DNA of 24,946 bases from positions 1-24,946 of the IMG/VR virus record IMGVR_UViG_3300001213_000095. The stretch is one strand, 5' to 3'. The position numbers and the translations under genes are program-made. The notes beneath the pieces were generated by a model. It made no database searches and was not told the DNA's origin. It saw only the letters and a program-made list of their open reading frames with translations. Positions 6,127-22,720 of this stretch are shown here, one piece after another. Source of the DNA: a virus. The stretch's first letter is position 1. Each line of letters opens with the position of its first letter.

Positions 6127-7632
6127 ATGCGAAAATATTGGTTTACTTTACTTGCCGCTCTTGCTCTCATCTTACTGGTAACCGGGTGCCCGAACACGAG
6201 CACGTCCGATGATACCAGCTCCACCGCCGCGCCTGCGGCTACTACCGACGCTACCGCTACGCCCGAGGCTACCGCTACCCCAGAAGCGACCGTCAGCCCC
6301 GGAGCTCCGGCAAAAATATCCGTATCCGGGGTTAAGGGCGTCTACCTCAAGACGACCTCAACCTCTACGGCGGCCGCCTCGAAGTTCTCCGTCCGCAGGT
6401 CAATTACTGGCTTCAAGGATGTTAGCTCGAGCACGACTACCGATCTTGGCGCGATAACCAGCGACGGAACCGCTACCACGGCAACCTTTACCGATGACTC
6501 AGGTAACTCCGTAACCGTCTCGATTTCCGAAGCCACTCAGCTTACGAGCCAGTACGTTCTTTTGGCCTACTCGTACAACTCAACGAGCGCTACGGCTATC
6601 CTGGATATGACGACCGGTTCGCTTACCGCGATTACGGTCATCCCGTCGAATTGGGCCAAGATTTTCGCGCGCGGAACTAAGGCCTGGTATATTTCTGGGA
6701 CTACGTTCTATCGACTTGATTTGACCACGGGAACTGCGACGAAACTATCAGAAAGCGCTGAGGTGTACGAAGCGCACGGGACTGAAGCCGATTCGACCGA
6801 CTCGGATGGAACCACGCCTTGGGGAACTGATACCTGGTGTTATTCCGATGCCGATGGAAATGCTTATGCGATTTGCGTCCCTAACTCTGCAAGCATCCGC
6901 GCTCAGGTTATTACCAGTGGAGGAATCGTTAAGAATTTCGGGCAGGCTTATCAGACGCTACAGTTTGCACAATTTGAGTCCGGAGGGTGTTTTCTAATAG
7001 ATGAATCAACTTATAAAATATACGTAGTTCAGGGACATCCGATTATTGATAATAATCCATCATGGGGAGGGTACGGACAGGCAGAGACTGGCGGATATAC
7101 GGTACAGATATTCCCGGTAAACTTAGACCCTGCCACTACAGCCGTCATATCCTACAAAACAGAAACTACTGCGGCTGCATATTGCGAAATGCCAGGTGCA
7201 ACTTCGGCAAATCTTGGGAATTTTATCGGCTTCGGGAACTGGATGGAATCAGGAGTTATGTCTATCGGCGGATATTCTTTCGCCTATACTCCCACAGCGA
7301 TTACTTGCTACGATACATCGAGTATCCCCACTTCTCACGTCGATCCATACGGAGAGACAACAACATCCGTTTATAACTGGAAATATTCGAGCGGGAATAT
7401 TTATGCCGGGCCTACTTCTTCGAGTTCGACAATTTCCTTGGTTAAGTTCAATTCAACTACTGCGGCATATACGCTATTAACTGACTCAACCATATCCTCA
7501 TGGAGCGTTGTCGGCGGTGTACTTTTTTACACCAACTCGAGCGGAACCTATAAGGCATCCGTAGATACGTCAACAGGATCCCTTGGATCGATAGAAACCT
7601 ACAGCGGGACGATCGAAGCCGTTACCCAGTAA
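6127..7632 (+). CDS. Secreted lipoprotein, 501 residues, probable beta-propeller; phage-borne cargo (moron)
   Basis: The N-terminus M-R-K-Y-W-F-T-L-L-A is followed by a hydrophobic core and the lipobox L-V-T-G-C with Cys21, so it should be lipidated and exported. Residues 22-62 are a low-complexity Thr/Ala/Pro/Ser linker with tandem T-P-E-A-T-A units (45-56). The rest is beta-rich with repeated patterns such as Y-R-L-D-L-T-T-G-T-A-T-K-L-S and I-L-D-M-T-T-G-S-L-T-A-I, typical of propeller blades, and several Cys residues. The gene has its own strong promoter, AGGAGG box and terminator and faces the late operon, so it is probably expressed independently of the lytic programme. Possible roles are host-surface alteration or superinfection exclusion; no family is recognised and neither role is shown. 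Base composition becomes visibly more AT-rich in its second half. Confidence 0.85.
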   Translation: MRKYWFTLLAALALILLVTGCPNTSTSDDTSSTAAPAATTDATATPEATATPEATVSPGAPAKISVSGVKGVYLKTTSTSTAAASKFSVRRSITGFKDVSSSTTTDLGAITSDGTATTATFTDDSGNSVTVSISEATQLTSQYVLLAYSYNSTSATAILDMTTGSLTAITVIPSNWAKIFARGTKAWYISGTTFYRLDLTTGTATKLSESAEVYEAHGTEADSTDSDGTTPWGTDTWCYSDADGNAYAICVPNSASIRAQVITSGGIVKNFGQAYQTLQFAQFESGGCFLIDESTYKIYVVQGHPIIDNNPSWGGYGQAETGGYTVQIFPVNLDPATTAVISYKTETTAAAYCEMPGATSANLGNFIGFGNWMESGVMSIGGYSFAYTPTAITCYDTSSIPTSHVDPYGETTTSVYNWKYSSGNIYAGPTSSSSTISLVKFNSTTAAYTLLTDSTISSWSVVGGVLFYTNSSGTYKASVDTSTGSLGSIETYSGTIEAVTQ

Positions 7633-8767: not shown

Positions 8768-9562
8768 CTAATACCTTATGCAAACTTGAGTGGCGAAACT
8801 TGCCGGGCGGTTCTCGTAATCAAGATTCGGAGTACCGTGAGTTCCATCTGTTATGGCCTCAACAGCCCTTGTCGCGGTCAATGATCGCCAATAAGAAGAA
8901 TCAGAAGTACCGTCTGCCGATTGGTTTGGATAAATGAAGGTTGAAGCTCTTGAAGTATAATCTGCTTTTATACCGTGATAATGGCCTATCATGGCGTCTT
9001 GTATAAACTCAGCAGGTAACGTTCCTCCTGCATAGTAATGCGTTCCCCCAGCCACCATTAGCCTCGTACCATTTGTCCCTAAGGCACGAGGGAAAAGACC
9101 GCGCAGATCAGGCATCTTCATGTACGTCCCGCTGGTGCTTCTCGTACCATCGCTCGTGCACTTATAAAACGCGGGAGCCGTGGCATTGTAGGTATCACCC
9201 ACGTAAACACCTGCGCATAAATCAGCATAGGACGCTATTAATATAATCGACCCGTTCAACGGTAATAGCCGCCTCAATGCCAGCTCCGTCGAGTTGAGCA
9301 TGGAGAGGCACAGCTCGCCGGGGCCGCCGTAGATTCGCTGACCGGCCTTGAGCAGCTGGCTGGCGTTGTAGTCTTCTTGCACTCCGTTCGGCGTAAGATT
9401 GGCCGCGTACATGAGCGCCTTTTGCCAGCCCCAAATCTGATCAATAAAGTTCTTGTCGTAGGGCGTTCCGTCAACGGCGGACGCACCGGATGCGTTCTTG
9501 GCTGCGGTAGCCGGCCAGTCTCCCACGACCAGCGTACCGTAGTTAGTTTTCATATCTATCAA
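8768..9562 (-). CDS. Tail fibre protein with collar-type C-terminal domain
   Basis: A 264-residue receptor-side tail protein. The tail-collar region contains M-P-D-L-R-G-L-F-P-R-A-L-G near residues 148-160 and D-A-M-I-G-H-Y-H near 188-195. The chain ends with the characteristic E-N-R-P-A-S-F-A-T-Q-V-C-I-R-Y, the usual terminus of phage collar fibres whose stem trimerises. TTG 9562 is preferred: AGGAGG lies five bases upstream of it, whereas the in-frame ATG at 9553 is fourteen bases away. A hairpin directly precedes this ribosome-binding site (25-nt repeat shared with the capsid gene). The short length suggests attachment to the baseplate rather than a long independent fibre. Confidence 0.8.
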   Translation of the reverse strand: MIDMKTNYGTLVVGDWPATAAKNASGASAVDGTPYDKNFIDQIWGWQKALMYAANLTPNGVQEDYNASQLLKAGQRIYGGPGELCLSMLNSTELALRRLLPLNGSIILIASYADLCAGVYVGDTYNATAPAFYKCTSDGTRSTSGTYMKMPDLRGLFPRALGTNGTRLMVAGGTHYYAGGTLPAEFIQDAMIGHYHGIKADYTSRASTFIYPNQSADGTSDSSYWRSLTATRAVEAITDGTHGTPNLDYENRPASFATQVCIRY

Positions 9563-9568
9563 AACTGC

Positions 9569-9593
9569 CTCCTTCCGTCATCTCGACGGTAGT
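9569..9593 (-). repeat. 25-nt leader repeat, copy 1: hairpin plus Shine-Dalgarno of the tail-fibre gene
   Basis: This 25-base segment is identical to 21971-21995 in front of the major capsid gene. On the minus strand it holds CCGTC-GAGAT-GACGG (9589-9575), a 5-bp stem with a GAGAT loop, immediately followed by AAGGAG. It fills most of the 37-base gap between the gp48-like gene and the fibre gene. Confidence 0.8.
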
Positions 9594-9599
9594 TTTTTC

Positions 9600-10442
9600 C
9601 TAAACTAGCTGAATTATCATGCCGGCCCACATTCCGAGCGGCTTTATTCTAAGTACGAGTCTATTTAACTCCTGCCGCCTCGCCGCGGGTATCTTAACCG
9701 CCTGGATTGAAGCTATACTCCCGTCTGAATTTCGTGAGACATAACCGCCTACAAAAAATACCAACGGCCAATAACCCGCCGGCGGCGAATCGTAATCATC
9801 AGAATAATCCGCGTACGAGTTATAGTGCCCCGCGCACTGCTGACCTGATAACGAGTCCGACCCGGTAAAAGCACGTGCGCAGACTATCCCTGCCTGGGGG
9901 TATACTGGCACGGCTGTATAGTTATCACCGTTTACCAGGTAGTAACCCGACCGAACGCCCGCGTAAGCCGCAGAATTCCCTGCGAAGGCATTAGATTTAT
10001 CAGACGCGGCATGGGCGGTTGTTTGATAGCACGTCTTGACGATGATCGCAGGATCGATCGCGGGGCTTTCGTTTTGCGTTACGATGAGGCCGTATCCGCC
10101 ATAACCAAAACCGGCACGATCCAAGGCGCTTTGAAGCTTCGTAAGCGTGGACAATCCCTTACGCTTATACCTAGCGATGGCCAGATTCGCGCGACGATCC
10201 GAGATGGTGAGGGCAGAGTTGGGGCTTATCCCGTACTCGCGCTCAAGATCAGGCAAGAGCTCTTCGTCTACTTTCCAAGGATCACGGACAGACTTTAACG
10301 CCTCGAGTTTATCGATATCAGCGTCGTAATTATCCGCGAGGCCATCGAGGAGGTTATCCATGCTTCCACCGGGCACGGGATTATAAATCGCACCACGGGG
10401 GAGATTTCCGTCAAGTATTCGACGAGCGTAAGGCTTACCCAT
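9600..10442 (-). CDS. Mu gp48-like baseplate/tail protein (DUF2313, YmfQ type)
   Basis: A 280-residue protein starting at ATG 10442, which overlaps the preceding stop as TGATG; an in-frame GTG at 10454 is the alternative. The first 130 residues fit the gp48/YmfQ family: a helical opening with L-L-P-D-L-E-R-E-Y-G and the segment L-T-I-S-D-R-R-A-N-L-A-I-A-R-Y-K-R-K-G. The C-terminal half is beta-rich with many Tyr, Gly and Asp. In Mu this gene follows gp47 and belongs to the baseplate periphery that carries the fibres, and the order here is the same. Confidence 0.8.
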   Translation of the reverse strand: MGKPYARRILDGNLPRGAIYNPVPGGSMDNLLDGLADNYDADIDKLEALKSVRDPWKVDEELLPDLEREYGISPNSALTISDRRANLAIARYKRKGLSTLTKLQSALDRAGFGYGGYGLIVTQNESPAIDPAIIVKTCYQTTAHAASDKSNAFAGNSAAYAGVRSGYYLVNGDNYTAVPVYPQAGIVCARAFTGSDSLSGQQCAGHYNSYADYSDDYDSPPAGYWPLVFFVGGYVSRNSDGSIASIQAVKIPAARRQELNRLVLRIKPLGMWAGMIIQLV

Positions 10443-11620
10443 CAGCTCACCCACGTAATTCCGCCGAGCTTCAACGTTTCGCCATCAGCGAGCGCGTAGA
10501 CATCCAAGTACGTTCCAACCGATATGCCGAATTTCACTTCGGTCACCGTTGCCTGATAGTCATCAAGGACGTTCATTGTAACGCGCGCCAGATGCCCCCT
10601 GACGAGTTTATCTAGGCGGTCGAAATCAGGGTCAAGGCCTTGGACGAACGGGCGGAAGGTGATCATGTAGGCGGTAAGCGCCGTATTAACGGCAGCCATG
10701 GCCGCACTGGACGTCCCGAGGCGCACCGAAAGCCCAGCAATTTCAACGTAGATTGGTGTCCTTGCGATCGATTGGACGTAGAGTGTGTCCGAGGTCAGGC
10801 CGAGGATTTCGCGCGATTTCCCGGTGTCGGGGTCGGCTAAGATGGCAGCCTTTACGAGAGCAACGAGTGACCCGTCGGCTATTCCGTCGGCCTGATAAGC
10901 CTTCGTGGCCTCAACATATACCGTACGCATGCCTGGGTATGCGGTAATCGACGCGTTGTAGGGCTTCCCGGTAAACGGATAAACGCGTTTTACCCCTGCT
11001 ACAGACTCGCCCCATTCGCGGATATCGCTTGAGTTACCTCCACCGCCGTCCGCACGTACTTTATCCAAAACACGCTGGCGGTACGTCTCGAGATCCTCTT
11101 TATCTACAGCCGTCGTGGTAATAGCCGTAACGGTGGCCGTCGATTCGGCGCCATCGATGGTTTCTTGCATCGTAAGCTCATCGCCTATCGCGAGATTGCC
11201 GGACGTCCCAGCTTCGGTGCAAATTAATGGTAAAGATACCGAGGTCCCGGAGGCTGTCACCTCTGCGGTCGTTTGGTACTGGAGTCCCTGGGGGCCATCG
11301 AAAATAGAGTTTATAGGTATGATCGTTCCGCTCTCGCAGGGTAACGTCGCGGCAAGAACGCATTGAGAGGCAGGGTTGCGCTCGCAGTCATATTCGATCC
11401 CGATATATTCGAGATCAAGCTCGGGCGCGGAAATGGCCAGATTCGCCTTGGCGCGATCGGCGGCGAACGCATAAAGTCCTTTTTCCGTCATGCCCTGCGA
11501 TACGGCGAGCACCTTATTGTAGGCCTTATCAGCCGAGGGCGTAGTAGCCCCTAGGCGCGATTCAAGATTCGCGAGGTTCCGGGCGGTGAGTTCTGAGGTC
11601 GATGGTATGGTGTCAGGCAT
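10442..11620 (-). CDS. Baseplate wedge protein, gpJ / Mu gp47 family
   Basis: A 392-residue baseplate J-like protein. Family features include the N-terminal helix region, the beta domain with T-E-A-G-T-S-G-N-L-A-I-G-D-E-L, and the signature D-K-E-D-L-E-T-Y-R-Q-R-V-L-D-K-V-R followed by G-G-G-G-N-S-S-D-I-R-E-W and V-A-G-V-K-R-V-Y-P-F. In contractile tails this subunit with gp46 builds the wedges around the spike hub. The start at 11620 overlaps the end of the gp46-like gene by eight bases. Length is typical for the family. Confidence 0.92.
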   Translation of the reverse strand: MPDTIPSTSELTARNLANLESRLGATTPSADKAYNKVLAVSQGMTEKGLYAFAADRAKANLAISAPELDLEYIGIEYDCERNPASQCVLAATLPCESGTIIPINSIFDGPQGLQYQTTAEVTASGTSVSLPLICTEAGTSGNLAIGDELTMQETIDGAESTATVTAITTTAVDKEDLETYRQRVLDKVRADGGGGNSSDIREWGESVAGVKRVYPFTGKPYNASITAYPGMRTVYVEATKAYQADGIADGSLVALVKAAILADPDTGKSREILGLTSDTLYVQSIARTPIYVEIAGLSVRLGTSSAAMAAVNTALTAYMITFRPFVQGLDPDFDRLDKLVRGHLARVTMNVLDDYQATVTEVKFGISVGTYLDVYALADGETLKLGGITWVS

Positions 11621-20684: not shown

Positions 20685-20941
20685 GCCTGCGAACCTCCGC
20701 TCAAGGATGACGCGACCGTCGTTTTTTTACTCGCCGAGGAGATAGCGGCCGTCAGATCAGCCGAGGACATCGTCACCGCGTCCTCCTGCTTAATGCCGGC
20801 CGCCACGGCCTTAGCGACGAGATCGTTCCAGGGCTTAAAGGCTGACTTGGTCGCGTCCGGGAGGAGCGACTCGTCGACCGTATCACCTGCGTTAAACTGC
20901 TGACGCCCAGCGTGGAACGTCATTCCAGCGGGAACGATCAT
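20681..20941 (-). CDS. 86-residue small connector-region protein (gpFI-like position)
   Basis: Begins with F-H-A-G-R-Q-Q-F-N-A-G-D-T-V-D, a short beta unit, followed by helices and a Ser/Thr/Ala-rich end. It is placed immediately after the capsid gene (ATGA overlap at 20938-20941) and before the closure protein. In lambda-like heads this position holds FI, a packaging-assisting protein, or a head-tail adaptor. No clear family is recognised, so function is by position only. Confidence 0.55.
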   Translation of the reverse strand: MIVPAGMTFHAGRQQFNAGDTVDESLLPDATKSAFKPWNDLVAKAVAAGIKQEDAVTMSSADLTAAISSASKKTTVASSLSGGSQA

Positions 20942-21963
20942 GCCAGTACCGCCGCGACGAGATAGGAATCGACCTCATGGGGGACGAGGATCGGGGCCGA
21001 CTGCATCTCGATGATGCGGGACTCGGGGTTCTTCTCGGTCCACGAACGCGGGAACCGGGGGACGGAGTAGAAGGAGTCAAAGCTTTGGATCACGCCGTAG
21101 AGGCGGTCGAATCGGGCGTTCGCCGAGCCCATCCAGATTTTCTTGGCGGGGACCATGGCGACGTTGTCCGATCCGTCGTGGTACCACTCGTCGTAGGAGT
21201 AAACATCGACTCCCACGTCCTTGAGATAACCCCAATACGTGACTCCGTTCGGAAGCAAACTCGGATCGATCTGGCCACGATCTATGCGGATCGAGGAGAG
21301 AGGAGAGCCTGCGGTATCGGGGTCTAGTGCCTTGATGAAGGCGTCGGCCGCATCGGTGCCCATGATGAGGTGCGTCGGGGCGCGGCCGGAATCCTTGATG
21401 ATAAGGCGTCTCCAGAGGCGGAGTTCCTTTAGCAGGTCGTTTTTTCCGATGCTCGCCCAGAGGGTATGGCCGGCGCCCGAGGCGAGGTTGTGAGTCGCGT
21501 CGAGTCCGAAGGAGATGGTCTCTCCGGATCGGGTGTTGATGTAGCCGTTGAACATGCCCTCAGCAGCCTGGATTTCCTCGCGCCGAGTAACCATGTCGTC
21601 GATCTCGACGAGGTCCATGTTGATGAGGCGCGCGGCCTGAGCCATGGGGCCGCCGGCCGAGTAGATATTCTCGGACGGGGCACGCTTCATACAATCCTCG
21701 GGGGTGAGGATCTTTTGCTCCTTGATGTAGGGAGCCTCGTAGGTCTTCGTGGTATATCCGTTCCGGTCAGAGACGTGGCCCTTGTCGCGGGGACTCACGT
21801 AGGCGGCCACGCGGCGCTTACCCTTAATGATGTCGATGTCCACCTTGGAGGTGTTAAAGTTGATGGTGTTCCGGTAGAAGGTGTCCCGGAGGAAGGTCCG
21901 GGCGGGGGGAATTTGTTCGAGAGCCTGAAGCATGACCCTCGTATCAAACATATCAATAGCCAT
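20938..21963 (-). CDS. Major capsid protein, lambda gpE family
   Basis: 341 residues, the same length as lambda gpE. It has the family opening M-F-D-T-R-V-M-L-Q-A-L-E-Q-I-P-P, F-L-R-D-T-F-Y-R, the conserved F-N-T-S-K-V-D-I-D-I region, a glycine-containing loop R-D-K-G-H-V, and near the end S-W-T-E-K-N-P-E-S-R-I-I-E-M-Q-S-A-P-I-L-V-P. It forms the icosahedral HK97-fold shell. AAGGAG lies seven bases upstream of ATG 21963, with a hairpin abutting it and further hairpins in the 106-base leader, including a terminator. The leader suggests special control of this most abundant protein. Confidence 0.93.
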   Translation of the reverse strand: MAIDMFDTRVMLQALEQIPPARTFLRDTFYRNTINFNTSKVDIDIIKGKRRVAAYVSPRDKGHVSDRNGYTTKTYEAPYIKEQKILTPEDCMKRAPSENIYSAGGPMAQAARLINMDLVEIDDMVTRREEIQAAEGMFNGYINTRSGETISFGLDATHNLASGAGHTLWASIGKNDLLKELRLWRRLIIKDSGRAPTHLIMGTDAADAFIKALDPDTAGSPLSSIRIDRGQIDPSLLPNGVTYWGYLKDVGVDVYSYDEWYHDGSDNVAMVPAKKIWMGSANARFDRLYGVIQSFDSFYSVPRFPRSWTEKNPESRIIEMQSAPILVPHEVDSYLVAAVLA

Positions 21964-21970
21964 TGGCTAA

Positions 21971-21995
21971 CTCCTTCCGTCATCTCGACGGTAGT
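21971..21995 (-). repeat. 25-nt leader repeat, copy 2: hairpin plus Shine-Dalgarno of the major capsid gene
   Basis: Identical to 9569-9593. CCGTC-GAGAT-GACGG (21991-21977) abuts AAGGAG (21976-21971), which is followed by the capsid ATG after seven bases. The core GTCGAGATGAC also forms the top of the terminator hairpin at 22030-22061. A further small stem, GCGCC-GGGAA-GGCGC, lies between them at 22004-22018. Confidence 0.8.
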
Positions 21996-22020
21996 AGGTC
22001 TGGGCGCCTTCCCGGCGCTC

Positions 22021-22061
22021 AAAGAAAAATGGCCCAGGCTGTCATCTCGACATGAGGGCCA
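22021..22061 (-). terminator. Intra-operon terminator between decoration and major capsid genes
   Basis: On the minus strand TGGCCC and GGGCCA (22061-22056 and 22035-22030) form the outer stem. An internal loop leads to the TGTC-GAGAT-GACA top stem, and TTTTTCTTT follows (22029-22021). It sits eight bases after the decoration stop. Either it partly terminates, or a processing or antitermination event lets transcription pass to the capsid and tail genes. Confidence 0.65.
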
Positions 22062-22069
22062 TACGAAAA

Positions 22070-22720
22070 CTAGGCGGCGAGCGTGTCCTTCAGGAAGATG
22101 CAAAGCTTGCGGAGCTTGTCCTTGATCGCGGCGGCGGTGTCGCCGGAATGAGCAAAGACCAAGGCGGCGGCGTTATAATCTCCGGTAAGGGCGACAACAC
22201 CGGGCTGGGTAGCGGCGATGTTTGCGCGGTCATCGAGCAAAATCGCGCAGGGCTCCTCGGTGCCGTCGATTGCGGTAGAATCGTAAGCCGCGAGCTGACC
22301 GGAGCCGGCCGCAACCACGATGTCCCATCCGTCTCCCGCTACGTGCGCGGTGCCGGAATTCGCCAGGGTGAACTTTATCTTCTTGGCGAAGGTTCCAAGC
22401 GCGACCGCTGAGCCGATAACGATTCCATCGGGATCAGTCACGTAGAAGGCGGTGGCCCCGGTGAAGGCGACGTGGTAGGTGCCGGGCTTACAGCCAGCAA
22501 GGCGGGGCTCGGTGGCGTCGATGACGCAGGTACCAGCGCCAGTATTGGCGCCAGCGGTACCAGCACCGGCGGCGACCGCAGCGGCAACCGCGCCCTTGGT
22601 GATCTTGCCCATCACCTGGCCTCGGACGAGAGCGCCAGCACTGATTTTGATGGTGCCCTGCTCGGTATTCTGCGGGAAATTCCCCGCGATGAGGTTATCA
22701 GGGGTAAAGGTCTCGGACAT
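22070..22720 (-). CDS. Head decoration protein (gpD-like)
   Basis: 216 residues. The N-terminus S-A-G-A-L-V-R-G-Q-V-M-G-K-I-T and the C-terminal part, with D-G-T-E-E-P-C-A-I-L-L-D-D and G-D-Y-N-A-A-A-L-V-F, match the lambda D-like capsid-stabilising family. Between them lies an inserted beta domain (about 60-145) beginning G-T-C-V-I-D-A-T-E-P and including Y-V-T-D-P-D-G-I-V-I-G, common in prophage versions and probably exposed on the capsid surface. It would bind threefold sites after expansion. ATG 22720 overlaps the protease/scaffold stop as TAATG, with GGAGG seven bases upstream. Confidence 0.85.
   Translation of the reverse strand: MSETFTPDNLIAGNFPQNTEQGTIKISAGALVRGQVMGKITKGAVAAAVAAGAGTAGANTGAGTCVIDATEPRLAGCKPGTYHVAFTGATAFYVTDPDGIVIGSAVALGTFAKKIKFTLANSGTAHVAGDGWDIVVAAGSGQLAAYDSTAIDGTEEPCAILLDDRANIAATQPGVVALTGDYNAAALVFAHSGDTAAAIKDKLRKLCIFLKDTLAA

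Follow-up and report, generated by a model that had tools for sequence, protein, structure and literature searches.

A hairpin element abutting the Shine-Dalgarno sequence of capsid and tail genes in otherwise unrelated uncultured phages

Two identical copies of the element in the window

The window, that is, the whole stretch of DNA analysed here (24,946 nt; positions 1 to 24,946 of virus record IMGVR_UViG_3300001213_000095), carries its late genes on the minus strand, among them a major capsid gene and a tail-fibre gene (Table 1). Sequence comparison within the window showed that the segments 5' of these two genes, 21971-21995 and 9569-9593, agree letter for letter over 25 nt. Read on the minus strand, the 25-mer is ACTACCGTCGAGATGACGGAAGGAG, or ACTA-CCGTC-GAGAT-GACGG-AAGGAG. 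That both copies are identical and each ends in the Shine-Dalgarno (SD) sequence of a structural gene, as a preliminary description had claimed, was confirmed by direct comparison and by Pfam and PHROG matches. The identity spans the 5' ACTA and the SD because both are parts of the element. Judging from the sequence, TTG 9562, six nucleotides past the SD, is the probable start of the tail-fibre gene.

Table 1. Coordinates of the element, its parts and neighbouring features
Feature	Position	Strand	Evidence or remark
Complete element 5' of major capsid gene	21971..21995	-	Covariance model R1, 44 bits, E 4.8e-13; sequence already in seed alignment
Parts of capsid-gene element	ACTA 21995-21992; stem 21991-21987 with 21981-21977; loop GAGAT 21986-21982; SD AAGGAG 21976-21971	-	
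Complete element 5' of tail-fibre gene	9569..9593	-	Covariance model R1, 44 bits, E 4.8e-13; sequence already in seed alignment
Parts of tail-fibre-gene element	ACTA 9593-9590; stem 9589-9585 with 9579-9575; loop GAGAT 9584-9580; SD AAGGAG 9574-9569	-	
Terminator-like hairpin, 3' of head decoration gene	22030..22061	-	Energy folding
Middle hairpin GCGCC(GGGAA)GGCGC, third GNGA type	22004..22018	-	Between terminator-like and SD hairpins
Major capsid protein gene	20938..21963	-	Phage_cap_E (Pfam 6.5e-49), phrog_29
Tail-fibre/collar-type protein gene	8768..9562	-	phrog_9370, phrog_4711
Head decoration protein gene, upstream neighbour of capsid element	22070..22720	-	HDPD, phrog_49
Mu Gp48-like baseplate wedge gene	9600..10454	-	Stops 7 nt short of tail-fibre element
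Hairpin array of Pseudomonas phage PAJU2	L183:2382-2568 = NC_011373.1 10534-10720	sense	

The core 11-mer GTCGAGATGAC occurs three times in the window, always on the minus strand; 100 shuffles, with one mismatch allowed, gave a mean of 0.42 and a maximum of 2, which the observed count exceeds. Its third copy (22041-22051) carries the different stem TGTC...GACA noted earlier and lies within the terminator-like hairpin, which is composed of an outer GC stem, a 3x4 internal loop (UCA/GCCU) and an inner TGTC(GAGAT)GACA, with a U run after it. Comparable upstream hairpins, with internal loops UCA/GCAU, were found in L014, L015 and L024. Three GNGA hairpins stand in a row 5' of the window capsid gene (22030-22061, 22004-22018 and 21977-21991). 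Full copies of the element beyond the two were not found elsewhere in the window. The tail-sheath gene of the window has no element in front of it (upstream of 19657); its relatives in contigs L036 and L107 have one.

A 501-aa lipoprotein-like ORF with an LVTGC lipobox and a threonine/alanine-rich start (6127-7632, plus strand) adjoins the late operon.

Recurrence, covariation and downstream genes

The element is common to dozens of otherwise unrelated uncultured phages. An exact 21-nt search returned zero further viral contigs because stem and loop vary. The pattern GTCGAGATGACNNAAGGAG matched 11 viral contigs, and in all 11 the NN pairs with the dinucleotide on the 5' side of the core (AC-GT, CT-AG, TT-AA or GC-GC). 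When the 5-nt loop was left free, all fully paired matches had GNGA followed by T, C or A. The constant GAGAT loop of the preliminary description had to be corrected accordingly: the loop is GNGA plus an optional fifth base, where N is A, C, G or T and the fifth base is T, C, A or absent.

The sequences scanned hold 81 distinct ACTA-N5-loop-N5-AAGGAG sites, with all five pairs formed in 73; an ORF start was detected at none of the 8 sites that are not fully paired. Fully paired copies with an ORF downstream number 72; 55 are left at a cut-off of 75% protein identity, and the proteins fall into 26 families. The recurrence predicted beside ribosome-binding sites of other phages was indeed observed. 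A 5-bp hairpin abuts 83 of 287 AAGGAG starts, against 2.3 in shuffles, on contigs picked for carrying the motif. Sampling was driven by the motif throughout, and many records are fragments. Many contigs have two or three copies.

Virion proteins account for 60 of the 72 downstream ORFs, as judged by a PHROG hit or by BLAST linkage to a scanned member. They comprise 25 major capsid proteins from seven PHROG families (10, 29, 283, 371, 267, 247 and 1005), 29 major tail proteins, 4 tail sheaths, 1 head protein and the tail fibre of the window; no function was assigned to the other 12. Of the two targets first proposed, the capsid gene therefore proved typical and the tail-fibre gene unusual, the downstream gene being mostly capsid, tail tube or sheath.

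L036 and L107, which belong to the capsid family of the window, have the element before both capsid and sheath genes, with different stems and loops. The element is absent from the capsid-based close relatives L003-L006 (44-49% identical), so it is not simply inherited along with this capsid family. Coat-gene relatives within annotated phages mostly have no such hairpin. A BLAST search of 50,697 phages, mostly from cultured hosts, with six short queries was a limited test and gave almost nothing: all matches were partial, the informative ones being phiKp_21 and PAJU2/IME307; one query against plasmids gave zero matches. In the jumbo Klebsiella phage phiKp_21 (LC768486.1; L020:2501-2524), a single 30-bit copy, ACTACTGTCGTGATGACAGAAGGG, lies in a 2-kb gap without annotated genes. 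A match in Gemmatimonadota (L007) was rejected as due to chance, 395 genomes of the phylum giving 1 pattern match and 1 reversed-control match.

The structure of the element is well supported: an ACTA flank, a 5-bp hairpin with a GNGA(N) loop, and an SD directly abutting the hairpin. Both window copies belong to model R1 (5-bp hairpin, (R)NGA(N) loop, abutting SD). The five upper pairs are formed in 100% of 35 distinct sequences. Changes on both sides of a pair occupy 39 cells, against 10.7 +/- 4.8 in shuffles, and none of 500 shuffles reaches this count, in agreement with the compensatory stem changes that had been predicted. They affect four of the five upper pairs, and slid controls collapse. 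The search patterns left the two outer pairs free throughout and the third and loop-closing pairs largely fixed; for the middle pair, T-A was imposed by the early scans and no longer by the final two.

Among copies retrieved by patterns that demanded neither ACTA nor AAGGAG, the 5' flank varies along with the SD (CUA-AAG, CCA-AGG, UCA-AGA). Below a nearly invariant A·A mismatch, two positions pair in 17/19 and 19/19 copies, both with compensatory changes; none of 5000 permutations of these 19 copies pairs as well, and a formal count on 18 rows agrees. Therefore, the helix continues past the A·A mismatch and takes in SD bases, with which ACTA pairs. As bases 2 and 3 of the SD stretch belong to the lower-stem pairs, the SD is partly within the structure. 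Minimum free energy folding of the window and other copies predicts the same lower stem, with the helix reaching the SD. An in silico SD-opening test found the SD no more accessible with the hairpin. At equivalent sites in homologues, the deviant loops TTGG (L025) and GCAA (before the L120 capsid gene) weaken the case for strict loop recognition.

A second GNC-GNGA(N)-GNC hairpin lies at most 100 nt upstream in 23 of the 55 copies, against 0.28 in shuffles and 0 on the antisense strand. Ahead of its major tail gene, the cultured Pseudomonas phage PAJU2 has a 187-nt gap that contains four sense-strand GNGA hairpins. No further hairpins of this kind (C-G or T-A closing pair, stem of 4 bp or longer) occur in the 13 kb that the comparison covered, and phage IME307 (L184) has a nearly identical array. 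None of the PAJU2 hairpins abuts an SD and their R1 scores are low; we consequently regard the array as a related arrangement of unproven membership. Its presence in a cultured phage makes bench work possible.

A possible translational operator and its rivals

Late phage operons have to supply capsid and tail-tube subunits by the hundred, and they also encode proteins needed in few copies. To our knowledge, the post-transcriptional setting of virion subunit ratios is poorly known. Covariation, strand, position and SD pairing support the reading of the element as a cis-acting RNA linked to translation initiation. Of the roles first suggested for it (a site for an RNA-binding protein, a processing site or a translation switch for abundant virion proteins), all may still apply, and from the SD pairing and the types of gene downstream we favour translation-level control. 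Our main reading, to which we give a probability of about 0.55, treats the element as an RNA operator that acts in cis within the translation-initiation region of genes for abundant virion proteins and is recognised through its GNGA hairpins. We hypothesize that a putative RNA-binding factor would bind these hairpins, and that its binding and the weak SD-pairing lower stem would together set the strength and timing of ribosome loading. Capsid and tail subunits would as a result be made late, abundantly and in coordination, by way of either activation or repression.

Since one element precedes 26 protein families, autogenous control by the phage's own structural protein is implausible. The candidate factor more probably comes from the host, given that no gene shared among the phages was found. 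The Com zinc ribbon (PF10122) and a CsrA gene were both absent from 42 phage records, many of them incomplete. Clustering of 11,223 ORFs from 64 records, most of them incomplete, revealed no widely shared non-structural protein family at BLAST sensitivity; the top clusters were mainly virion and packaging families. It is tempting to propose, if only tentatively, that many unrelated phages make use of a host RNA-binding factor that reads GNGA hairpins, each having put the same operator before its own capsid, tail-tube and sheath genes. The hairpins might then possibly make up a post-transcriptional code across phages that sets virion stoichiometry or timing, undescribed as far as we could check. 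The recurrence of one small RNA element before capsid and tail-tube genes, in phages whose capsids are unrelated, points to a mechanism that is shared and testable, and perhaps to a new RNA-binding partner. The element can also serve to flag, by sequence, the major capsid and tail genes in uncultured phages.

Two explanations are serious rivals of the operator. The first, rather unlikely in our opinion, is selective RNA processing and stabilisation, by which the late polycistronic RNA would be cleaved 3' of the upstream hairpin and 5' of the SD hairpin. The upstream hairpin would then shield the message before it at the 3' end, and the SD hairpin, capping the capsid or tail message at its 5' end, would make that message more abundant. 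Such processing would account for the succession of terminator-like hairpin, U-rich stretch and SD hairpin in the window, L014 and L015, and for targets from which more product is needed than from their operon neighbours. Elsewhere among bacteria, this mechanism is established for operon stoichiometry (PMC4423207, PMC10667835). However, it requires neither the flank-SD covariation nor the GNGA loop, and 32 of the 55 copies are without an upstream GNGA hairpin under the criterion applied.

The second rival, which we consider unlikely, is intrinsic ribosome recruitment without a trans factor: the hairpin would stack on the SD:anti-SD helix, or dock the 30S via its GNGA loop, and strengthen initiation. 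The exact abutment of hairpin and SD, the TTGG and GCAA loops in homologues and the failure to find a phage-encoded partner all agree with such a device. Yet it should be widespread, whereas the mostly cultured-host phages were almost empty in the limited test with six short queries; moreover, partial pairing of the SD should hinder recruitment, and the extra GNGA hairpins distant from the SD are left unexplained.

A DNA-level feature (promoter, operator, REP-type repeat or functionless recent segmental duplication) is very improbable, for although the window copies are identical and hyphenated-palindromic, it is already contradicted by outer pairs that covary while the oriented loop stays GNGA, and by an element that is strand-specific, fixed in position relative to the SD of unrelated genes and without further full copies in the window. 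A REP-like or host-wide repeat was rejected on strand, position and covariation, and a recent duplication lacking recurrence and covariation, the outcome that would have overturned the preliminary description, fails because both were found.

Known systems and looser relatives

The translational operator that we favour may, by analogy, work as known ones do, although the element is a tested member of none. At the window sites and carrier loci, Rfam 15 returned no family at the gathering score, nor at E<=1 to 5 with lax filters and shorter stretches. In the open-licence literature, we found neither the core 11-mer nor such a hairpin/SD/capsid element described.

MS2-type coat and T4 gp43 operators are likewise hairpins that take in part of the SD; those are sites for one specific phage-made protein, whereas here 26 protein families lie downstream. 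CsrA/RsmA leaders also have tandem hairpins with one at the SD, but CsrA sites need the loop GGA, and in the element's GNGA loop the N is variable. The boxB hairpins of the lambda and P22 nut sites are similarly short, with a purine-rich 5-nt loop. They have a GNRNA loop and follow early promoters; the element is found at the SD of several late genes for structural proteins, its loop being either GNGA+Y or a plain tetraloop, and with a fifth base that is T, C, A or absent it does not conform to the GNRNA pentaloop. Selective RNA processing/stabilisation stem-loops likewise lie between operon genes of unequal stoichiometry, and we know of no conserved loop or SD pairing in them.

The closest working parallel is the translational activation of mom by Com in phage Mu, where a small hairpin in a late-gene initiation region has a GA dinucleotide in its loop. 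Com prefers CC(N)2-3GAG within a hairpin loop (PMC6483171). Tetraloop copies of the form GCC-GNGA-GGC contain CC-GN-GAG; pentaloop copies, including those of the window, lack the GAG. The element differs in that it precedes not mom but the capsid and tail genes of unrelated phages, many in number, and in that no PF10122 was found in the 42 records.

Other arrangements of similar hairpins were observed. In marine contigs L050-L081 (e.g. L055:8800-8855), tandem GTGA and GAGAT/GGGAT hairpins with a TAGGAG SD precede 76-79 aa signal-peptide proteins of unknown function; these contigs are mostly one homologous group, which we count as a looser relative, and L055 bears an alphaproteobacterial tmRNA. 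On the contigs of L123, L097 and L108, the loci L140, L143 and L145 have TGA-CYGYC(GNGA)GRCRG-ACA and then a purine-rich SD; the ORFs downstream are DNA-methyltransferase-like or of other kinds. Finally, in L099, L156 and L158, GAGAC/GAGAT hairpins precede related ORFs starting VPKRIDLTGQRFGR or LPKRIDLTGQRFGR, which are possibly mobile endonucleases.
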